Source: Segetibacter sp.
Lineage (GTDB): Bacteria; Bacteroidota; Bacteroidia; Chitinophagales; Chitinophagaceae
Reading direction: 5' to 3'
Assembly (NCBI GenBank): GCA_021154405.1
Contig: JAJKIP010000027.1
Coordinates: 1 to 34,967, forward strand
Length of the DNA stretch: 34,967 nt
The position numbers and the translations under genes were made by a program. The notes beneath the pieces are model-generated. The model was given only the letters and a program-made list of their open reading frames with translations, ran no database searches and had not been told where the DNA came from. This document shows positions 997 to 17,026 of this stretch, one piece after another. Numbering within the stretch: the stretch's first letter is position 1; each line of letters opens with the position of its first letter.

Positions 997-3678
997 ATGC
1001 ATAAATTTTTATCCTTTCTTATCCTGTTTTTTGCTGTTTTAGAGGTTTCGGCCCAGTTTCCTGGAGGCGGCGGTGGAAATCGCGGTAACGGGCAACAGAT
1101 AACCGGTCGTTTGTATGGCAAGATCGTGGAAACCAAATCCGGTAAACCTGTTGAATATGCTTCTGTGCAGCTTATCCAGAATAAGATGGATATGGTAACA
1201 AAGCAGAGAAAGGATACTGTAGTGAATGGTATGCTTACCCAGGCAAATGGTGAGTTCAGTTTGGAAGGAGTTTCAGTATTTGGTCAGCTGAAATTGAAAA
1301 TTAGTGCCATTGGATTCAAAGAGTTCACAGAAAATGTTTCATTTAATTTAAGACCTCCTGCCGGTGGTGCCGCACCAGGGGCTACTCAGGATTTCAGTTC
1401 CATGTTGGGTGCTCTGGACAAGGACCTTGGTAATATAAAAATAGAAATTGAAGAAAAGGTATTGGGCAATGTAGTAGTTGATGCAACAAGGCCAGGTCTT
1501 CAATTAGGTATCGATCGCAAAGTTTTCAATGTAGATAAGAATATTGTTTCTGCCGGCGGAACTGCTATCGATATCATGCGGAATGTTCCTTCTTTGAATG
1601 TGGATATTGATGGGAATGTTACCATGCGTAATAACTCTCCTCAATTATTTGTGGATGGTCGTCCCAGCAATCTTACTTTGGAACAGATACCAGCGGATGC
1701 CATTCAGAGTGTGGAACTGATCACTAATCCCTCTGCCAAATTTGATGCTTCTGGTGGAACAGCTGGCATTCTCAATATCGTATTGAAAAAGGAAAAGAAA
1801 GTTGGATACAATGGTAGTATTCGTGCCAACCTTGATTCACGCGCCCGGGTAGGTTTGGGCGGCGATATCAATTTGCGCCAGAAAAAAGTTAATCTCTTTG
1901 CAAATGCCATGCTCAACCAGCGTAAATCCATTGCTACTGGTACAACTGACAGGCAGAATTTTTATACTACACCTGATGTCAACGTTTATCAAAAGGACCG
2001 TTCAGTTCAATTAGGCGGATTCGGTTTTGCAAGAGGTGGGTTTGATTATTTTATCGATAACAGGAATACACTTTCACTGGCGGTTAATTATGCCAGGGGC
2101 CAGTTCAAACCAAGCGCAGTAAGTGATATCCTGTTTGATTCTCTGTATTCTACTAAAGTTTCTTCCTTCCAGCAGCGCATAACAAATACCGAAGGTAATT
2201 TCAGGAACCTGGGTACTACATTAAGTTTTAAACATAATTTTCCAAAGGCAGGAAAGGAATTGACGGCAGATATAACTTATAATGGTAGCCGGAATGATAA
2301 CGAGAGTTTTATCACAACAGACTATCAAAACGTTCCGCAATACCAAACCCTCAGCACCTATAGCCAGCAGCAGGTAGTTGAAGGAAAGAATCAGAACCTG
2401 ATTGTTCAGACAGATTATGCCAATCCTATTACCGATAAATCCAAGATTGAGTTCGGATTAAGGGCCCAGTTGCGCAGGACAAATAGCGAGAACGCTTTTT
2501 ACATTGATTCATTTAATACTAAAAAGTTTACGCTGCAGCCACAATCGCAGTCTGATTACAAGAGTAATGATCAGGTGTATGCGGCTTATGCTACCTATAC
2601 CAGACAGGGAAAGATTTTTGGTTACCAGTTAGGTCTGAGAGCTGAAAGTTCCGATTACCATGGTGAAGCTTCAGCACAAAATTTTGATATTCATTTCCCG
2701 ATCAGTTTCTTCCCAAGTGTTTTCCTTTCTCAAAAACTGGGAGAAACACAAAGCCTGCAGTTGAATTATAGTCGCCGGATCAATCGTCCCAATTTTTGGC
2801 AGTTGACACCTTTTACTGATTCATCTGACCGCTTAAACCCCAGCAAAGGAAACCCAGGCCTTAAACCTGAGTTCACAAATTCCTTCGAACTGTCTTATGA
2901 AAAGACTTTCAAAAACAGGGGCAATTTCCTTGCCTCTATTTATTATAAGACAACAACAGATCTTATTACCAGGTTCCAGCAACAGGGAACTGGCGCGGGT
3001 GGAGAACCTGTTATATTAACCACATACATTAATGCCAATTCAAGTTTTGTTACCGGACTTGAACTGACCATGCGCAATAGTTTTACAAAGTGGTGGGAAT
3101 TCACTCCTAATTTCAATCTTTATACTTCTGATGTAAAGATTGATATTCCGGGTGAGGAAGATCAGCCAAGGCTGACCAGCTATTTTGTAAAAGTGAATAA
3201 CACATTCAAATTACCGAAGAATATCTCCTTCCAGTTATCTGGTGATTATCAATCCAAGACTGTATTACCACCGGGTGGTACAGGAGGAGGCGGAGGATTT
3301 GGCGGTGGTGGTGGCCGTGGTGGTCCTGGCGGTGGAGGCCCGGGTGGTGGCTTTGGAGGTGCTGCATCGGCATCACAGGGATTTATCCGTCCAACTTATG
3401 GAGTGGACGCTGCGGTACGTTATGAGTTCCTCAAAAACAGAACAGCTTCCATTTCACTTAATGTGAACGATATCTTCCGTACAAGACGCCAGGATATCCA
3501 TTCTGAATCTGCTTTCTTTAGTCAGGATGTATTTCGCAGGCGTGATCCGCAGATACTTCGTCTTAATTTCAACTGGCGCTTCGGTAAATTTGACGCAAGT
3601 CTCTTCAAGCGTAAGAATATGAAAAGTGAAAGCCAGGGCATCGATGCGAGTCAAATGGGCGGAGGTCTGGGTCAATAA
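997..3678 (+). CDS. TonB-dependent receptor, outer-membrane beta-barrel family
   Basis: This encodes an 893-residue outer-membrane protein. A signal peptide (MHKFLSFLILFF...VSAQ) is followed by a Gly-rich linker. A carboxypeptidase-regulatory-like domain spans about residues 37-105 (GKIVETKSGKPVEYASVQL). A plug-like domain lies at about 165-265, with DIMRNVPSLNVD, LFVDGRPSN and the GTAGILNIVLKK ending. The rest is a beta-barrel with many aromatic-ended strands and motifs such as NYSRRINRPNFWQLTPF and NPGLKPE. These match the Bacteroidota outer-membrane beta-barrel family (PF14905-like) rather than the SusC type. No SusD-like partner is adjacent, so the substrate is unknown. A Gly-rich insert (about residues 760-788) interrupts the late barrel. 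A direct repeat upstream and a strong hairpin terminator downstream suggest a single-gene transcript. Confidence 0.92.
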   Translation: MHKFLSFLILFFAVLEVSAQFPGGGGGNRGNGQQITGRLYGKIVETKSGKPVEYASVQLIQNKMDMVTKQRKDTVVNGMLTQANGEFSLEGVSVFGQLKLKISAIGFKEFTENVSFNLRPPAGGAAPGATQDFSSMLGALDKDLGNIKIEIEEKVLGNVVVDATRPGLQLGIDRKVFNVDKNIVSAGGTAIDIMRNVPSLNVDIDGNVTMRNNSPQLFVDGRPSNLTLEQIPADAIQSVELITNPSAKFDASGGTAGILNIVLKKEKKVGYNGSIRANLDSRARVGLGGDINLRQKKVNLFANAMLNQRKSIATGTTDRQNFYTTPDVNVYQKDRSVQLGGFGFARGGFDYFIDNRNTLSLAVNYARGQFKPSAVSDILFDSLYSTKVSSFQQRITNTEGNFRNLGTTLSFKHNFPKAGKELTADITYNGSRNDNESFITTDYQNVPQYQTLSTYSQQQVVEGKNQNLIVQTDYANPITDKSKIEFGLRAQLRRTNSENAFYIDSFNTKKFTLQPQSQSDYKSNDQVYAAYATYTRQGKIFGYQLGLRAESSDYHGEASAQNFDIHFPISFFPSVFLSQKLGETQSLQLNYSRRINRPNFWQLTPFTDSSDRLNPSKGNPGLKPEFTNSFELSYEKTFKNRGNFLASIYYKTTTDLITRFQQQGTGAGGEPVILTTYINANSSFVTGLELTMRNSFTKWWEFTPNFNLYTSDVKIDIPGEEDQPRLTSYFVKVNNTFKLPKNISFQLSGDYQSKTVLPPGGTGGGGGFGGGGGRGGPGGGGPGGGFGGAASASQGFIRPTYGVDAAVRYEFLKNRTASISLNVNDIFRTRRQDIHSESAFFSQDVFRRRDPQILRLNFNWRFGKFDASLFKRKNMKSESQGIDASQMGGGLGQ

Positions 3679-3708: not shown

Positions 3709-3763
3709 AGAGAGCCGTAGAGTATTCCGATAGCTATCGGGATTTTCTGCGGCTCTCTTTTTC
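3709..3763 (+). terminator. Intrinsic terminator after the TonB-dependent receptor
   Basis: AGAGAGCCGTAGA (3709-3721) pairs with TCTGCGGCTCTCT (3746-3758), giving a 13-bp stem with one G-U pair. A run of T (3758-3762) follows. Nested in the loop is the perfect 14-base palindrome CCGATAGCTATCGG (3727-3740). The 3' flank supports termination of plus-strand transcription. Confidence 0.88.
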
Positions 3764-7909: not shown

Positions 7910-7936
7910 ATAGCTTGGATGAATCAAATTATTTGC

Positions 7937-8308
7937 ATGAAAACATTAACGAAAGCCGAAGAGCAGGTAATGCAGGCTGTCTGGAAGTTAAATTCGGCCT
8001 TTCTGAGGGATATAGTAGATGAAATGCCTAATCCCAAGCCTCATCAGAATACCGTTGCCACGCTGTTAAAGATCCTTGTAGAAAAGGAATTTATCAGGAT
8101 CACGGTACTTGGTCGTCAGCACCAGTACTCCCCTCTCATCAGCAAAGAAGATTATTCCAAAAAGACCATGAAGCAATTAATGAAGGGATACTTTGAAGGA
8201 TCGTTCAGCAATGTGGTATCCTTCATGGTGAAAGAGAATAATATCTCAATTGAAGAGTTGGAAACCCTGCTACACCAGATCAAAAAACAACAAAACCAAA
8301 AGAAATGA
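7937..8308 (+). CDS. BlaI/MecI/CopY-family transcriptional repressor
   Basis: This encodes a 123-residue winged-helix repressor. The N-terminus MKTLTKAEEQVMQAVW and the recognition-helix segment PHQNTVATLLKILVEKEF are characteristic of the BlaI/MecI/CopY family. The C-terminal helices (GSFSNVVSFMVKENNISIEELETLLHQI) form the dimerisation part, which is where BlaI is cleaved when its partner protease is activated. An in-frame ATG at 7919 would add six residues. I prefer 7937 because it matches the family N-terminus and because a -7-like box at 7911-7918 would place 7919 before the transcript start. The gene overlaps the M56 peptidase gene by 4 bases (ATGA), so the pair is translationally coupled. 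Tandem dyads just upstream suggest autorepression. Confidence 0.92.
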   Translation: MKTLTKAEEQVMQAVWKLNSAFLRDIVDEMPNPKPHQNTVATLLKILVEKEFIRITVLGRQHQYSPLISKEDYSKKTMKQLMKGYFEGSFSNVVSFMVKENNISIEELETLLHQIKKQQNQKK

Positions 8309-10458
8309 CCAGCCTTTTTTATTACCTCATCCAGGTAATTGTTTCATCTGGCATCCTTTACCTGTATTACCAGTTTTTTCTACGGAATAAACGGTTTCAC
8401 CAATATAACAGGTTCTATCTCCTGGGAACTGTTATCATAAGTATCATCATACCATTTTTACGAATACCCGTTTATTTTACCCATGAAGATTCTGCCTCCT
8501 CCATTGTTTTTAGAACACTGACCATACTTGGACCCTCGAGTGAGGAAATCCCTTTGAATACTGGTAATTTAAGTGCACTACAAAATACCTCTCATCATAC
8601 TGTTGATCTGATCTATTGCCTTTATGCGCTGATAGCCTGTCTGGCACTTGGCAGAATTATCATTGGGCTGGTTCGTATTAAAACTCTTGGCAATCGCAAT
8701 CCTTCAAAAAAAATCGGAAATATCTTTTTTATCAATACCAGTGATTCACATGCTCCATTTTCTTTTTTTAACCGGTTATTCTGGCATCGGGATATTGAAT
8801 TGAAGTCTGAAAAAGGTGAACAGATATTTCGACATGAACTGTTCCATATCCGTGAGCGGCATAGCCTGGATATTGTATTCATGGAATTAGTATCCATGGT
8901 TTTCTGGATCAATCCTTTTTTCCATCTGATTAAGAAAGAAATGAGGGCGATACACGAATTTCTTGCTGACAGATATGCTCTTGATAAATGCAACCAATGG
9001 AATTACGCCGAAACGCTGCTGATGCATGCTTTCCAAACCAGGCAATCGCTTGTAAATCCATTTTTCCATAACCAGATAAAAAGACGTATAGCCATGATCA
9101 CAAACCCAAAAAAAACAAGCCACCAATACCTGCGCAAGGTGCTGGTATTACCGGTAGCGGTAGTAATTGTTACCCTGTTTGCCTTCAGTTACCGTAAAAA
9201 CAATCCAATTGTATCAAGCTCAAAAGATATGATCACCGTAGTCGTCGATGCGGGCCATGGTGGTGATGATCCTGGAGTACAAAGCCCAGATGGCAAGTAT
9301 AGGGAATCGGAATTGGCCCTTTCAATTACAAAAATGATTCAACGATTGGCCCCTGAATACAATATTAATGTGCTTATGACCCGGAAAGATGCGAATTATC
9401 CCGGCGGAGCTGCTGACAAGAATCAAGGTTTAATGAAAAGGGTTGAGATCACTAATGAAATAAGCCCCTCGGCATTCATTTCCATACATGTCAATAATAG
9501 TGGGATTAAAGGTTTCCAAAATAAAAATTCAGGAATTGAAGCGTATGTAACAAATAAAAGGGAAGATGATCCCGGTAAAGCTGCTGCCTCTGCCATATTA
9601 CAGGAACTATCGGCTGTATATAAAACATCAATTGATCTGAAATACAGGGAGAACCTTGGCATCTATGTATTGGATAAGAATAAATGTGCTTCTGTAATTC
9701 TGGAATGCGGCTATATGAATAATCGGCAGGACCTGGATTTTATAACTAATGAGGCTAATCAGGAGAAAATGGCTCGAGCTATTTTGAAAGGCCTTGTAAA
9801 CTTCAATAAGAGCCTGGCTTTCCAGGCAGTCCCGGCATTGCAAACTATTGACACCCTGCCCCATTCCTATACTATTGACGGAAAGATTGATTTTGCCGGA
9901 GGAATAACTTTTAAGGCAGAAAATATTACTGTGAAAACGAATGAGGTTCCATCAGGTCAATCATTTAATCCCAAATTGATCGTCTTAAATGGAAGTTTGT
10001 TAACGCAGGAAGATGCAAAGAATACTTTCAAAAACGCAACCGTCCGAAACGCAGAAATTCAAATACTGGCGCCAAATAATGGAGAGGCTATTGGCAAATA
10101 TGGAGAGAGGGCAAGAGAGGGTGTAATTGTAATTGAAAACGCTGTTATGGAAAAGAAGGAGCCAAAACTATTGAAAAATCTAACATTAAATGGTGTAGAA
10201 GGTGACCCATTATTCATTCTGGATGGTAAGGTCCTTGCTCGTGAAGATGCTGAGAAAACGATGAGATCACTGGACCCAAACACTATCGAAAGTATCAACA
10301 TTTTGAAGGATAAGTCTGCAACCACTTTATATGGAGAAAAAGGGAAAAATGGTGTAATACAGATCATAACCAAGAAGAAGAAATACCCTTCTTCCGCCTA
10401 TTTGCAGCCTGGTGACTCACTAATTGTAAGAGAGGATTCGCCATCCAATGTTCAATAA
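8305..10458 (+). CDS. BlaR1-like M56 metallopeptidase fused to N-acetylmuramoyl-L-alanine amidase and two plug-like repeats
   Basis: This encodes a 717-residue multi-domain membrane protein. Residues 1-300 form a BlaR1-type M56 module with membrane segments at about 4-22, 36-53, 102-122 and 278-296. Its zinc-protease motif is HELFH (177-181), with the third ligand Glu218 in HEFLAD. Residues 308-500 are an Amidase_3 domain with all expected residues: His318 in DAGHGG, Glu334 in RESELAL, His395 in SIHVN and Glu467 in ILECGY. Residues 556-612 and 634-690 are two copies of a TonB-plug-like unit (LIVLNG/LFILDG; KYGERAREGVIVI/LYGEKGKNGVIQI). In BlaR1 the segment after the last membrane helix is an external beta-lactam sensor; here an amidase takes that place. 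The protein presumably cleaves or releases BlaI in response to a wall signal. Both the ligand and whether the amidase is active are unknown. Confidence 0.9.
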   Translation: MTSLFYYLIQVIVSSGILYLYYQFFLRNKRFHQYNRFYLLGTVIISIIIPFLRIPVYFTHEDSASSIVFRTLTILGPSSEEIPLNTGNLSALQNTSHHTVDLIYCLYALIACLALGRIIIGLVRIKTLGNRNPSKKIGNIFFINTSDSHAPFSFFNRLFWHRDIELKSEKGEQIFRHELFHIRERHSLDIVFMELVSMVFWINPFFHLIKKEMRAIHEFLADRYALDKCNQWNYAETLLMHAFQTRQSLVNPFFHNQIKRRIAMITNPKKTSHQYLRKVLVLPVAVVIVTLFAFSYRKNNPIVSSSKDMITVVVDAGHGGDDPGVQSPDGKYRESELALSITKMIQRLAPEYNINVLMTRKDANYPGGAADKNQGLMKRVEITNEISPSAFISIHVNNSGIKGFQNKNSGIEAYVTNKREDDPGKAAASAILQELSAVYKTSIDLKYRENLGIYVLDKNKCASVILECGYMNNRQDLDFITNEANQEKMARAILKGLVNFNKSLAFQAVPALQTIDTLPHSYTIDGKIDFAGGITFKAENITVKTNEVPSGQSFNPKLIVLNGSLLTQEDAKNTFKNATVRNAEIQILAPNNGEAIGKYGERAREGVIVIENAVMEKKEPKLLKNLTLNGVEGDPLFILDGKVLAREDAEKTMRSLDPNTIESINILKDKSATTLYGEKGKNGVIQIITKKKKYPSSAYLQPGDSLIVREDSPSNVQ

Positions 10459-12660: not shown

Positions 12661-13425
12661 CTAGTATTCAATCCGGAATTCCAGGGATTTTCCGTCATCA
12701 AAAAAATCTTCCATGGAACTCATGATGGTAACTGTCTTTTTATCTTCAGAAACTGTTAGGTTCTTTCCTTCTGCTTTTTTCACCGGGGAAGGTAAATAAA
12801 GGATCAATTTACTGTTGCCAATACCCATTGACGACATCTCTTTCATAGCTTTCATGCCTTCATCGTCTCCTACCCTGGCATACCTGTCTGCCAGTAATTT
12901 TCTTTCCAAAAGGCCTTTGCTGATATTGAATGCGTAATATTCATCAATATTGCCCTCGGGCATTTTATCGGTGGGCAACCCTGCAGGCATTCCGGTTTTT
13001 GTACTGTCCAGCTGCTTTTTCATTGCCTGGATAATGACTTTAGAGTACATCTTATCGATAGTAGCAATTTCATTACTCTTGCTAAACGGGAAGGTCATTT
13101 TTGTAATGAGTTTATCATTCTTAAGGTCCATGTTTAAACCCAATGTGCCTTTTTTAACCAGGTCTTTTTCTTCAGCTGTAAGCTCAGGCATTTCGTCTAC
13201 CATTTTCTCCATTGACATGGTGGTATCCACTGCTTTTTCTTCTTTCAGTTTATTCATTTCATCACCCTCTCCTGCCATCTTCGCCAGTCCAAGCATGCTG
13301 CTCATATCACCGGTGGTCGTCATCATTCCTGTTCCGTCAGCCCGCAAGGTTATTTCTTTGGTAGTTTCACAGCTGGTTAAATAAATTGTTGATGCAGCCA
13401 GTAAAAACAGCACAATCCTTTTCAT
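12661..13425 (-). CDS. Lipoprotein of unknown function
   Basis: This encodes a 254-residue protein with a lipoprotein signal peptide, MKRIVLFLLAASTIYLTSC, and lipidation Cys19. The mature part begins with a beta-type stretch (KEITLRADGTGMMTTTGDMSSML). It continues with an acidic, Met-rich and Lys-rich helical region and ends with FDDGKSLEFRIEY. I recognise no enzymatic motif. The DGTG...T..MSSM beginning is seen in other Bacteroidota lipoproteins of unknown role. It lies downstream of holA on the same strand with a 118-base gap, so it may be co-transcribed or separate. It ends one base from the convergent ribF stop. Placement in the periplasm or outer membrane is inferred from the signal only. 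Confidence 0.8.
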   Translation of the reverse strand: MKRIVLFLLAASTIYLTSCETTKEITLRADGTGMMTTTGDMSSMLGLAKMAGEGDEMNKLKEEKAVDTTMSMEKMVDEMPELTAEEKDLVKKGTLGLNMDLKNDKLITKMTFPFSKSNEIATIDKMYSKVIIQAMKKQLDSTKTGMPAGLPTDKMPEGNIDEYYAFNISKGLLERKLLADRYARVGDDEGMKAMKEMSSMGIGNSKLILYLPSPVKKAEGKNLTVSEDKKTVTIMSSMEDFFDDGKSLEFRIEY

Positions 13426-13543: not shown

Positions 13544-14542
13544 TCAGGCAGTCATCTTATAAAGCATTTCTTTGAGCAGAGAACCATCTTCGGTAGCGGC
13601 ACTATTGATGCCAATGCTTTTTAAATTATACTGGTGAAGTAACAGCAATATTCTTTCCACCCCCTGGAAATTATAGATCTTTGCAGCCTGCATATAATCC
13701 TTTACGAAAAAGGGATTGACTCCTATTGCGGCGGCCACTCCTTTTTCATCAGTAGTACCTGCACCAAAAACCATAAATACCTTACTGAAAAAGCTATAAA
13801 GAGATGGCAGGACCAGTTGAATTGGCGCAGCCTTGGGATTGGCTTCAAAATACTGAATGATCCGCAGGGCTTTTGCAAAATCCCTGTGGGCAATGGCTGA
13901 TTGTAATTCAAATACATTAAAGTCCTTGCTTACGCCGACGAACTCTTCAATATCTTCTTCTGTTATGGTTTTCCTTTTGCCCAGGTTAATGGAGATCTTG
14001 TTGATTTCATTTTCAATTCGGGTCAGGTCATTCCCGATATGGTCAACAAATAGAGCAAGGCCCCTGGGTGAAATGGAAAGTCCTTTTGTTTCCAGCAATT
14101 CCTGGGTCCATTCCGGAACCTGATTATCGTACATTTTTTTTGTAGTAACCAGTACCCCTTTTTCTTTTATCAGTTTGGCAAACTTTGTACGGCCGTCTAC
14201 TTTTTTATCTTTATAGGAAACGATGAAAATAGTTGACGAAAGCGGGTTATCAATATAGGGTTCCAGTTTTTCAATATCCCTCATCTGCTGGGCCTCTTTT
14301 ATGATCACAACCTGGCGTTCCGCAAACATTGGATACCGTCTGCACGCGTTGACAACCTCTGGCCAGGTGGCATCTTTTCCATAAAAAACGGTGAGATTAA
14401 AGGAGGCTTCGCTTTCATTCAGGATGCTGGTTTCTGCATAATTAACAGCCTGATCTATGAAATATTCCTCGTCGCCCTCCAGCCAGTACACAGGCTTGAA
14501 AACACCCTTTTTCCACTCTGTTATGATCTTGTCAATACTCAT
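13544..14542 (-). CDS. holA: DNA polymerase III delta subunit
   Basis: This encodes a 332-residue protein that is the clamp-loader subunit opening the beta sliding clamp during replication. The N-terminal part, PVYWLEGDEEYFIDQAV, corresponds to the HolA YLL.G.E.yLi.e motif. MFAERQVVIIKEAQQM and SSTIFIVSYKDKKVDGRTKFAKLI follow as in the family. NDLTRIENEINKISI is the conserved L..E..KL helix region. DFNVFELQSAIAHRDFAKAL marks the C-terminal domain that contacts other clamp-loader subunits. The degenerate nucleotide-binding site expected of delta fits the absence of a Walker A motif. The length is typical. It is divergent from the coiled-coil gene at 14746. Confidence 0.93.
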   Translation of the reverse strand: MSIDKIITEWKKGVFKPVYWLEGDEEYFIDQAVNYAETSILNESEASFNLTVFYGKDATWPEVVNACRRYPMFAERQVVIIKEAQQMRDIEKLEPYIDNPLSSTIFIVSYKDKKVDGRTKFAKLIKEKGVLVTTKKMYDNQVPEWTQELLETKGLSISPRGLALFVDHIGNDLTRIENEINKISINLGKRKTITEEDIEEFVGVSKDFNVFELQSAIAHRDFAKALRIIQYFEANPKAAPIQLVLPSLYSFFSKVFMVFGAGTTDEKGVAAAIGVNPFFVKDYMQAAKIYNFQGVERILLLLHQYNLKSIGINSAATEDGSLLKEMLYKMTA

Positions 14543-14745: not shown

Positions 14746-15729
14746 ATGACAAACACAAATTATCCATCCGCTACTCCACAAAGTACGCCTCCGGCACCAA
14801 GGAATCGCGGAAACAAAAATTTACTGATAGCGATTCTTGCAGTTGGCTTGCTTGGTACATGGGCATATCTACTGTGGGATAAGAACAATTCTGGCGAGAA
14901 AATGCAGATAGCTCAAACCCAGGGTGAAAGCTACATGTCTCAAAGAGACTCTCTGAAACTCCTTTATGATGACGCTGAACTGCGTCTGGATTCAATCACT
15001 GGTGCAAATAACAATCTGCAGGGTGATAAATCAGATCTCCAAAAGCAAATCGAGTCTAACAAGGCTGAGATCAAAAAGATCCTTAATGATAAGAATGCTA
15101 CAGCTGCTGACCTGAAAAGGGCCCGCACTATGATCTCTGACCTGAATGGCCAGATCGCATCACTGGAACAGGAAGTTTCCCGTCTGACTGGTGAAAACCA
15201 GGTACTGACTGCTAACAATACACAGCTTTCTTCTGAAAAGCAGGTATTGGAGCAAAATCTTCAGACTTCTACTTTAGAAAAAGAAGAATTATCTCAAACT
15301 GTTGACGTAGGTTCTACTTTCAGCGCTTCTAATATTCAGATCACTGCAGTGAATGAAAAGAAGAATGGTAAAGAGAAAACTACTACCACAGCTAAAAGAG
15401 TTGATAAACTGGTTATCTCTTTCGATGTAGAGAACCGTATTGCAAGGTCTGGTCCAGCTGATATGTACATTGTAGTAACAGCGCCTAATGGCCAGGTGAT
15501 CACTGATGCTGCTAACGGTACTTCTACCCTGACTACCCGCACAGAAGGTGACAAACAATATACAGCAAAGGTGCCTGTAGATTACGAACAGGGAACTCGT
15601 AAAGCTGTTCAATTCCCGATCCGTCAGAACGATTTCCAGACTGGTAACTACAAGATTGAAGTTTACCACAACGGTTTCAAGATCGGTGAAGGTGTAAGAA
15701 GCCTGAAGAAAGGTGGCCTGTTCAGCTAA
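14746..15729 (+). CDS. Membrane-anchored coiled-coil protein, paralogue A
   Basis: This encodes a 327-residue protein. After a short Pro/Thr-rich cytoplasmic start there is one membrane segment (LLIAILAVGLLGTWAYLLW, about residues 27-45). A long coiled coil follows (about 58-180), with regular Leu/Ile spacing and repeated Q, N, K and E. A Thr-rich linker (KEKTTTTAKR) leads to a beta-rich domain (about 215-320) with KLVISFDVENR, MYIVVTAPNGQVI and NYKIEVYHNGFKIGEG. I know no function for this family. The codon use looks biased to a small set (CTG, ATC, GGT, CGT, AAC), suggesting high expression. A strong terminator follows at 15852-15884. The next gene is a paralogue with the same architecture. 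The beta domain probably faces the periplasm, by inference. Confidence 0.85.
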   Translation: MTNTNYPSATPQSTPPAPRNRGNKNLLIAILAVGLLGTWAYLLWDKNNSGEKMQIAQTQGESYMSQRDSLKLLYDDAELRLDSITGANNNLQGDKSDLQKQIESNKAEIKKILNDKNATAADLKRARTMISDLNGQIASLEQEVSRLTGENQVLTANNTQLSSEKQVLEQNLQTSTLEKEELSQTVDVGSTFSASNIQITAVNEKKNGKEKTTTTAKRVDKLVISFDVENRIARSGPADMYIVVTAPNGQVITDAANGTSTLTTRTEGDKQYTAKVPVDYEQGTRKAVQFPIRQNDFQTGNYKIEVYHNGFKIGEGVRSLKKGGLFS

Positions 15730-15742
15730 GAATAAAATTAAC

Positions 15743-15800
15743 TCCGCCTTCGCGCAAGGCTTACGCTTGCGCCGAAGCTTCAGCGTAGGAGCACGGCGGA
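15743..15800. repeat. GC-rich inverted repeat, probable dispersed palindromic element
   Basis: TCCGCC (15743-15748) and GGCGGA (15795-15800) bound a segment containing a perfect GCGCAAG/CTTGCGC stem (15752-15758 and 15766-15772) and the palindrome GAAGCTTC. Its base composition is unlike the flanking AT-rich gap. It resembles the dispersed TCCGCC...GGCGGA palindromes found between genes in many Bacteroidota genomes. Confidence 0.6.
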
Positions 15801-15851
15801 TAAAATAGGTGGTTTATTCGGTTAAAAGCAGTTGCAAACTCCGCAACAGAG

Positions 15852-15884
15852 CCGTCTCACTTTATTAGTGAGGCGGTTTTTTTT
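15852..15884 (+). terminator. Intrinsic terminator after paralogue A
   Basis: CCGTCTCACT (15852-15861) pairs with AGTGAGGCGG (15867-15876), a 10-bp stem with one G-U pair and a 5-base loop. Eight consecutive T (15877-15884) follow. This is a textbook intrinsic terminator that separates the two coiled-coil genes into different transcripts. Confidence 0.93.
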
Positions 15885-16019
15885 ATGGGTGCCCTACCCT
15901 CCGTTGCCTCATTTCCTGCTTCTAAATCCCGGGCTATAGGAAATCTACGATTATATAGTCGTTAATTTGCCAGCGTTCGGAATATTTTTACCTTTCAGGA
16001 CTTACAAACTGGATTCGGT

Positions 16020-16943
16020 ATGAGAGACACAAAGCCCCTTTTAATTGCCCTTCTTTCCATAGGCCTGGTTGGAACATGGGTCTACCATCTATTCGATAAA
16101 ACGCAGTACAGCCAGCGTATAAAGCAGGTTTACGTGAGAGATTCAATAGGCATTGCCAATGCCATCCGGGACTCGCTGAAGGGCCGGTATGACATGACAA
16201 TTGACTCCATCGATACCCGCCTGGAGTTCACCGAAAATGGCAATGATTCACTGAGAAATCAGCTGGATGTAAATATTGTCCAGGTCAATACCCTCAAAAA
16301 CCAGATCAACTCCCTGCTTAAAAGCCGGAATCTGAGCAAGGAGGATATTGCTAGGGCAAGGCAGATGATCAATGAACTTCAAACGAAAGTGGATGAATTG
16401 AGTGGCGCCAACAGTTCCATCAACGAGGAAAAGAACCGAATGGCCGCCCAAATGCAATCACTGACCTCACAGATCGAAGGACTGCAGCAAAATGTCAAGT
16501 CGCTCAATGATCAGAACCAGACTCTCACTGAACAGATCAGGCTGGCCTCTGTCTTTGTGGCTTCAGATATGAACTTAAATGCAATTGATGAAAAATCGAG
16601 CAAAGAAGAAGAAACAGCCAGTGCCAAAAAGGCTGATAAATTCGTGGCTTCTTTTGTAGTGCAAAATCTGGTGAACGAATTCAAAAATGCAGAGGTTGTT
16701 ATTGTTGTACTCCAGCCGGATGATACGGTTTTAGAGATCAGCGACTGGAACACCGGCAATTTTGAAACCCGGCTTCAGGGAATGAAGGCGTATACCCGCC
16801 TCGTGAAATTTGATTATTCCAAAGGTGAACAAAAGCAGATCATCTTTTCATTGAGTCCGGGTAGTTTTCAGAAAGGGACTTATAAACTCCAGGTCTGGCA
16901 CAAAGGGATCATGATCGGTCAAACAAATAAGACACTTAGCTAA
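16020..16943 (+). CDS. Membrane-anchored coiled-coil protein, paralogue B
   Basis: This encodes a 307-residue protein with the architecture of its upstream neighbour. One membrane segment (LLIALLSIGLVGTWVYHLF, about residues 6-24) is followed by a coiled coil (about 35-175) and a C-terminal beta-rich domain (about 205-307). The paralogy shows in matching blocks: GLVGTWVY/GLLGTWAY, ARQMINELQTKV/ARTMISDLNGQI, ADKFVASFVVQN/VDKLVISFDVEN and GTYKLQVWHKGIMIG/GNYKIEVYHNGFKIG. It lacks the Pro-rich N-terminal tail, and its codon use is less biased than that of paralogue A. The function is unknown. It has its own upstream region and ends at a hairpin shared with the convergent receptor gene. Confidence 0.85.
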   Translation: MRDTKPLLIALLSIGLVGTWVYHLFDKTQYSQRIKQVYVRDSIGIANAIRDSLKGRYDMTIDSIDTRLEFTENGNDSLRNQLDVNIVQVNTLKNQINSLLKSRNLSKEDIARARQMINELQTKVDELSGANSSINEEKNRMAAQMQSLTSQIEGLQQNVKSLNDQNQTLTEQIRLASVFVASDMNLNAIDEKSSKEEETASAKKADKFVASFVVQNLVNEFKNAEVVIVVLQPDDTVLEISDWNTGNFETRLQGMKAYTRLVKFDYSKGEQKQIIFSLSPGSFQKGTYKLQVWHKGIMIGQTNKTLS

Positions 16944-16972
16944 TTAGAATCTGGAATCGAATTGATAATAAA

Positions 16973-16999
16973 AAGGTCGTCCGCGTAGCGGACGACCTT
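16973..16999. terminator. Bidirectional hairpin terminator between convergent genes
   Basis: AAGGTCGTCCGC (16973-16984) is perfectly complementary to GCGGACGACCTT (16988-16999), with a 3-base loop. On the minus strand the stem runs into TTTTTATTAT, which favours termination of the receptor transcript. On the plus strand CTTCTTATTAT follows, giving weaker termination of the coiled-coil gene. Confidence 0.9.
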
Positions 17000-17026
17000 C
17001 TTATTATATTACTAACGCTATATACT

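Follow-up and report, generated by a model that had tools for sequence, protein, structure and literature searches.

A nearly class-wide, unnamed Bacteroidia protein family with a membrane anchor, a coiled coil of conserved length and an Ig-like domain, read as a candidate periplasmic strut

Background

GldM/PorM stalks consist of an N-terminal transmembrane helix, a helical stalk and C-terminal Ig-like domains, and cross the periplasm. MreC, TolA and DivIC share the plan of the protein described here, namely a transmembrane helix, a coiled coil and a periplasmic domain, while their C-terminal domain is presumably of a different fold. In the accessible portions of two sources, Lpp is described as a trimeric coiled coil of ~ 7.5 nm, present at up to a million copies per cell, and changes to its length are reported as both tolerated and informative (PMC8824477; PMC5736177).

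Here we analyzed two neighboring genes, A and B, in a 34,967-nucleotide stretch of a Segetibacter sp. contig (JAJKIP010000027.1), which we refer to as the window. An initial annotation, made from the letters of the window, had proposed an abundant envelope scaffold (A) with a second, differently expressed copy (B). A gene that is nearly universal in its class, has ribosomal-like codon use, and bears no Pfam or NCBIfam name marks a gap in what is known about the Bacteroidota envelope. If A fixes or maintains the spacing of the two membranes, it would answer the question of what does the job of Lpp in Bacteroidota, and the conserved length of its coil makes the ruler reading directly testable.

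Results

Two full-length paralogs differ in codon use

The features of the locus are collected in Table 1. The two genes had been annotated as tandem paralogs sharing a membrane anchor, a coiled coil, and a C-terminal beta domain, and this was borne out by BLASTP, which aligned residues 21-320 of A with residues 2-306 of B at 32% identity and 55% similarity (E 2e-49). A and B are therefore true full-length paralogs. B lacks both the N-terminal tail of A and its C-terminal KKGGLF tail.

Table 1. Coordinates of the features at the A-B locus, in window positions
Feature	Position	Strand	Description
holA (DNA polymerase III delta)	13544..14542	-	divergent neighbor of A
Conserved box TTCTGGCACGGTTTTCGGAA	14604..14623	+	upstream of A
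ORF A	14746..15729	+	327 aa: short cytoplasmic tail (predicted), one TM, long coiled coil, Ig-like C-terminal domain
A membrane anchor	14818..14877	+	residues 25-44, hydrophobic
A coiled coil	14878..15303	+	residues 45-186, one uninterrupted heptad coil
A Ig-like beta sandwich	15304..15708	+	residues 187-321, family-defining domain (predicted fold)
GC-rich imperfect palindrome	15743-15801 (about)	.	folding z -2.2, moderately better than shuffles
Intrinsic-terminator-like hairpin	15848-15880	+	between A and B; 14 pairs and a T tract; folding z -4.8
ORF B	16020..16943	+	307 aa: fast-evolving A paralog, ordinary codon use
Strong symmetric hairpin	16973..16999	.	between convergent B and TonB-dependent receptor gene

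Codon use was evaluated against 133 background ORFs of at least 150 aa, taken from 18 other contigs of the source genome (83% complete, 383 contigs), and the reference for the codon adaptation index (CAI) was a set of 15 ribosomal-protein ORFs from the same genome, picked by eye in one operon. A had a CAI of 0.754, higher than 99% of the background ORFs and higher than the ribosomal leave-one-out mean of 0.726, while B had a CAI of 0.588, at the 21st percentile. The ENC of A was 43.4, and none of the 133 background ORFs was lower (mean 53.5, sd 3.2); that of B was 57.4. Codon bias is thus unequal between the two genes, with the narrow codon set confined to A, as had been claimed. Elsewhere, the codon bias of A is weaker. 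A ranks lowest in ENC within its locus at 24 of 71 Chitinophagaceae loci, and ENC was lower in A than in B in only 24 of 38 other pairs, the contrast being strongest in the window. Judged by codon bias, A is probably an abundant protein in the source organism. Abundance outside the relatives of the window is less clear, since at 11 of 39 class loci, where 4.2 would be expected, no gene has a lower ENC than the class ortholog.

The family appears nearly universal in the class

In whole genomes, the family was found in 55 of 59 from the family and order of the window and in 277 of 295 from its class, which we take to be Bacteroidia in GTDB terms; among well-assembled class genomes, the count was 241 of 252. 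With the beta domain alone as the query, 274 of the 295 still matched, so the class-wide count is not coiled-coil noise. There was no match in 18 of the 295, some of them complete. In a sample of 148 genomes from the phylum, 46 matched, 32 of them in the class. The 14 matches outside it covered the coil only (E 4e-8 to 5e-4), and nothing beyond coiled-coil noise was found outside the class in this sample. The closest named loci belong to Terrimonas, Niastella, Niabella, Flavisolibacter, and other Chitinophagaceae. One family member (L163) has 516 aa, probably from an over-long start.

Neither A nor B matched any Pfam or NCBIfam model over its curated cut-off, and the listed matches were mostly coil-only (for B, the best 25 of 58 Pfam and 32 NCBIfam rows). 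Coil-only matches to DivIC (Pfam) and MreC (NCBIfam) were weak and below the cut-offs. When the beta domains of 55 members were compared with Pfam, DUF6941 reached the most members, weakly (12 members, best E 0.001), and other families touched at most six of the 55, at E values of at least 0.001 among the matches listed. The beta domain had two weak matches among PDB sequences (E 0.0024 and 0.26), and whole-family matches in the PDB were discarded as coiled-coil noise. By these searches, the family appears to be nearly universal in the class and unnamed in Pfam or NCBIfam. The breadth of A had escaped the initial annotation, as had the status of B as a young duplicate limited to part of one family.

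A candidate third copy in the same genome (E 0.02) was rejected, as its ORF looks by eye like a GH2-type glycosidase with likeness at the level of fold only. PG1850, a hypothetical protein of 302 aa, was also dropped as the P. gingivalis ortholog and is a candidate only, going by the accessible part of its source (Gupta and Lorenzini 2007, PMC1887533). A literature search with little reach into subscription journals returned no paper that we recognized as dealing with the A family.

A coiled coil of conserved length carries an Ig-like domain

A contains no Cys and therefore no lipobox; 133 of 201 family members are also free of Cys. Its hydrophobic segment would be an anchor of the uncleaved signal-anchor type. 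The N-terminal side of this segment is the more positive in 147 of 201 proteins, in keeping with an N-in topology, and is not in the other 54 (five further rows had no transmembrane segment at the chosen threshold and were omitted). From this charge pattern, A is predicted to lie with its N terminus inside.

The periodicity of the coil was averaged over 40 class proteins together with A and B. Hydrophobicity over residues 45-186 had a best period of 3.50, with a power reached by 0 of 5000 column shuffles, and in no 28-residue segment of the coil did the phase at 3.5 leave the range of 59 to 98 degrees. One position of the heptad core was Leu in 46% of cases, and the other was Leu, Ile, Asn, or Val, with Asn at 18%. 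Asn in one core position and Leu in the other favors a parallel dimeric coiled coil, and on this pattern and general knowledge of coiled coils a parallel dimer is the favored state for A. The distance from the transmembrane segment to the Ig domain was 143 +/- 6.8 residues across 40 proteins (39 of 40 fetched loci, 31 family codes), and the alignment of the coil had 2-3% gaps despite 16-25% identity; identity in the Ig domain was 31%. With a coiled-coil rise of 0.1485 nm per residue, the 142 residues would span ~ 21 nm, about as wide as the periplasm of Gram-negative bacteria. No figure for periplasm width was found in the accessible part of PMC9870892.

AF2 modeled the C-terminal region of A as a beta sandwich with a pLDDT of about 90. 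Its confidence was low across the transmembrane region and no more than moderate along the coil, where the model interrupts the helix near residues 88-95 and 115-120. In VIA, the beta domain matched the C-terminal domain of AlkC (Z 10.2, rmsd 2.5, 102 aligned) and, in near-equal rows, Ig domains of GH2 enzymes (Z 9-10); Foldseek and VIA-align together placed it among the Ig-like domains of glycosidases, transglutaminases, and AlkC. Since many structure matches are tied, the domain has no specific relative, and the models assign it to the Ig-like fold as a fold class. The initial annotation could name no function for the family, and the match found here is generic rather than to a well-described family. 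An Ig fold says little about the ligand.

One alternative is that the coil and beta domain make up an ordinary secreted or surface protein whose codon bias and universality have unrelated causes. In its favor, both structural elements are widespread, and the match of the beta domain is to a generic fold. We consider this highly improbable, given the low gap rate, the length conserved over 31 family codes, the presence of the Ig domain in nearly all class genomes, and purifying selection on both genes (median dN/dS 0.116 over 64 usable A pairs and 0.052 over five usable B pairs).

The same architecture could belong to a membrane-tethered periplasmic chaperone or holdase, similar to Skp or PpiD, with the coil and Ig head acting as escorts for outer-membrane proteins. 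The likely abundance and the universality of A would fit a role in outer-membrane biogenesis, and Ig-like folds do serve in chaperones such as PapD. Against this, the rod keeps to heptads throughout instead of being splayed, no PPIase or Skp-type family was among the matches listed, and a term search for "coiled" gave nothing in the accessible part of a paper on the Bacteroidota BAM complex (PMC12611786). We regard a chaperone as quite unlikely.

The cytoplasmic end of the protein bears on a further alternative, a transmembrane sensor or signaling rod whose Ig head senses the state of the wall or outer membrane and whose coil signals to the tail. Before the transmembrane segment, the A proteins of Chitinophagaceae have a conserved, predicted cytoplasmic tail in common, M..TNYPSA.P, and one unbroken coil register would suit signal transmission. 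The tail is short, though, with 48% gaps across the class and no domain, very high codon bias would be unusual for a sensor, and none of the recurrent neighbor clusters was conspicuous as a regulator gene. A sensor is unlikely on this evidence.

Fusions to OmpA and the gene neighborhood

Four genomes of a single family (f74) encode PD40-CarboxypepD_reg-OmpA proteins of 913-1024 aa with the Ig domain at the C terminus (L202:3194-5998, L257:1053-3950, L258:803-3541, and L259:675-3746). These come from three genera (g210 twice, g409, and g293), and the fusion genomes also keep the stand-alone gene of ~ 310 aa. A profile built without the row of the first fusion still matched residues 806-933 of that protein (E 1.3e-25). 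Across f74, 128 of 149 genomes matched the family, and the listed misses were mostly genomes of at most 2.3 Mb, with a few exceptions. Among the matches listed, OmpA (PF00691) was absent from A and B and occurred in the fusions only. The fusions sit in few genera, and they place the Ig domain beside a peptidoglycan-binding module at least in f74. These proteins share the Ig domain with A, whereas A itself has no OmpA domain and is predicted to be anchored in the inner membrane.

Reading by eye, A was adjacent to holA in 73 of 80 named Chitinophagaceae loci. Among 40 class loci, none had holA beside the gene, while 13 had it divergent from a PF00156 gene (cluster c1, also read by eye) that we take to be comF. 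Outside comF the neighbors varied, and no conserved operon surrounded the gene in these 40 loci. A shared operon was therefore set aside as a clue to function, the gene being solitary outside Chitinophagaceae. L171, L193, and L198 are among the comF loci, and in some of the comF loci a presumed GAF-type gene and a Big_5 gene follow.

The neighborhood and the fusions bear together on whether A belongs to one of the known machines that cross the envelope (the type IX secretion and gliding motor, Tol-Pal, or division), in the manner of GldM/PorM. Its order of parts is that of GldM, and the fused PD40-CarboxypepD_reg-OmpA architecture is the one of PorE-type proteins in type IX secretion. A differs from GldM/PorM in its single Ig domain, its long heptad coil, its solitary gene with varied neighbors, and its near-universality in the class, which goes beyond the known spread of type IX secretion. 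By name, the 25 Pfam families listed for A (E <= 1) include neither GldM/PorM nor another such subunit. We consider a machine subunit very unlikely.

A candidate periplasmic strut

The reading that we prefer, at a rough probability of 0.42 and therefore tentatively, is that A serves as an abundant strut in the periplasm, probably dimeric and anchored in the inner membrane, with its Ig head close to the peptidoglycan or outer membrane. It draws on computed features (domain order, shared ancestry, codon bias, distribution, heptad register, length conservation, the box found only upstream of A, and the Ig-OmpA fusions), from which we infer the abundance, dimer state, topology, location, partner, and strut function of A. 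Of the proposed abundant envelope scaffold, abundance stands on codon bias, and the scaffold role is the best reading of the architecture, the coil geometry, and the OmpA fusions.

A would be the Chitinophagaceae ortholog of a class-wide family of unnamed periplasmic struts. Its N terminus would stay in the cytoplasm, with one helix anchoring it in the inner membrane, and two chains would likely zip into a parallel coiled coil of about 142 residues, or 21 nm, that carries the Ig head to the peptidoglycan or outer-membrane side of the periplasm. There the head might bind a partner in the wall or outer membrane, and many copies of A could brace or tether the envelope. B would be a later, fast-evolving duplicate, transcribed separately from A, produced at a lower level, and presumably a specialized variant.

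Lpp offers a close comparison for the preferred reading, as both it and A (by codon use) would be abundant periplasmic coiled coils, conserved in length and tied to envelope spacing. A is not an Lpp, since it lacks a lipobox and has a transmembrane anchor. It further differs from Lpp in its likely anchorage in the inner membrane, in a coil nearly three times longer that is likely dimeric, and in its Ig-like head. A more specific claim is doubtful, namely that Bacteroidia have in this family a counterpart of Lpp attached at the opposite membrane, a class-specific, abundant ruler of ~ 21 nm that would set the width of the periplasm by docking its Ig head on tethers of the peptidoglycan or outer membrane.

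Origin of B and the regions between the genes

In a quick tree of 102 proteins, B formed one clade inside the A genes of Chitinophagaceae, while a single branch set the 40 class genes apart on one side. As the B clade is nested among Chitinophagaceae A genes, A can be read as the vertical ortholog and B as the later duplicate, although the node joining B to its A sister had an SH-aLRT of only 83 in this tree. B exceeded A in non-synonymous divergence for 814 of the 818 locus pairs. On these comparisons, B appears to be a fast-evolving duplicate born inside Chitinophagaceae and present in part of one family.

Among the 80 named loci, 37 had A alone, 19 had A-B, 20 had A-X-B, and two were variants; in the other two, A was missed by the ORF picker. 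X is an exported protein of ~ 382 aa, found in 22 of the named loci (at L042:9128-10270 and 21 further ones), 21 of which have it between A and B. Its predicted fold is that of the Ppx/GppA-NTPDase group (Foldseek 1t6d, E 4e-12), and the two members scanned had no Pfam match. Loss of X from between A and B was considered and dropped for the window, where tblastn found no remnant (E over 1), and our explanation is not built on X.

The two genes had been described as independently regulated, separated by a strong terminator and a dispersed-type palindrome. A terminator-like hairpin was confirmed, while "dispersed-type" holds only weakly, as the palindrome has two other partial copies in the genome, at 85-86% over about 40 nt. 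Independent regulation is supported by the terminator and more strongly by the box upstream of A. The hairpin beyond B is probably a two-way terminator. In the same interval, between B and the TonB-dependent receptor gene, positions 16965-17007 form an almost perfect 20-bp inverted repeat (folding z -8.2).

The box, near-invariant as TGGCAYGGTTTTNG across Chitinophagaceae, is nearly the sole conserved stretch in the A upstream region among relatives. Its core was found upstream of A at 73 of 78 named loci and in 22 of 28 relatives from the same family, using a pattern composed after viewing 14 of the counted loci; it was found upstream of none of 43 B genes and none of 40 class orthologs. Within the genome, TTCTGGCACGGTTTTCGGAA occurs once at 0 mismatches and once more at up to 3, which is no higher than the backward-control level. 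L019, L020, and L023 retain the box with no holA in the flank examined, which indicates that the box goes with A.

Part of the box fits the -24 element TGGCAC of sigma54 promoters, the consensus being given as TGGCACN5-7TTGCT in the accessible part of PMC12316311. A G stood ten bases after the GG in 92% of 96 distinct sites, a comparison in which the search itself demanded the TGGCA core, while the -12 GC dinucleotide was found in 3 of the 96. RpoN was present in 58 of 58 relatives. A full sigma54 promoter upstream of A was rejected, as the -24 half agrees and the -12 GC does not. We therefore name the box only as a conserved A-specific element, to judge by its sequence, that is possibly sigma54-like. 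A scan for canonical sigma54 sites gave 29 matches against 12 in the control at one mismatch, and no regulon was inferred.

Several other features of the window were observed. A 25-bp inverted repeat with no spacer lies at 3709-3758, after an outer-membrane protein gene (997-3678). Between ribF and holA, an ORF for a lipoprotein-like protein of 254 aa (12661-13425) had no match in Pfam and is kept in many Chitinophagaceae loci. The gene at 8305-10458, directly preceded by a BlaI-type repressor gene (7919-8308), encodes a protein of 717 aa with a weak TonB plug-like match just below the cut-off. This protein combines a BlaR1-type M56 peptidase with Amidase_3 (E 1e-34), and thus joins a sensor protease to a wall hydrolase.
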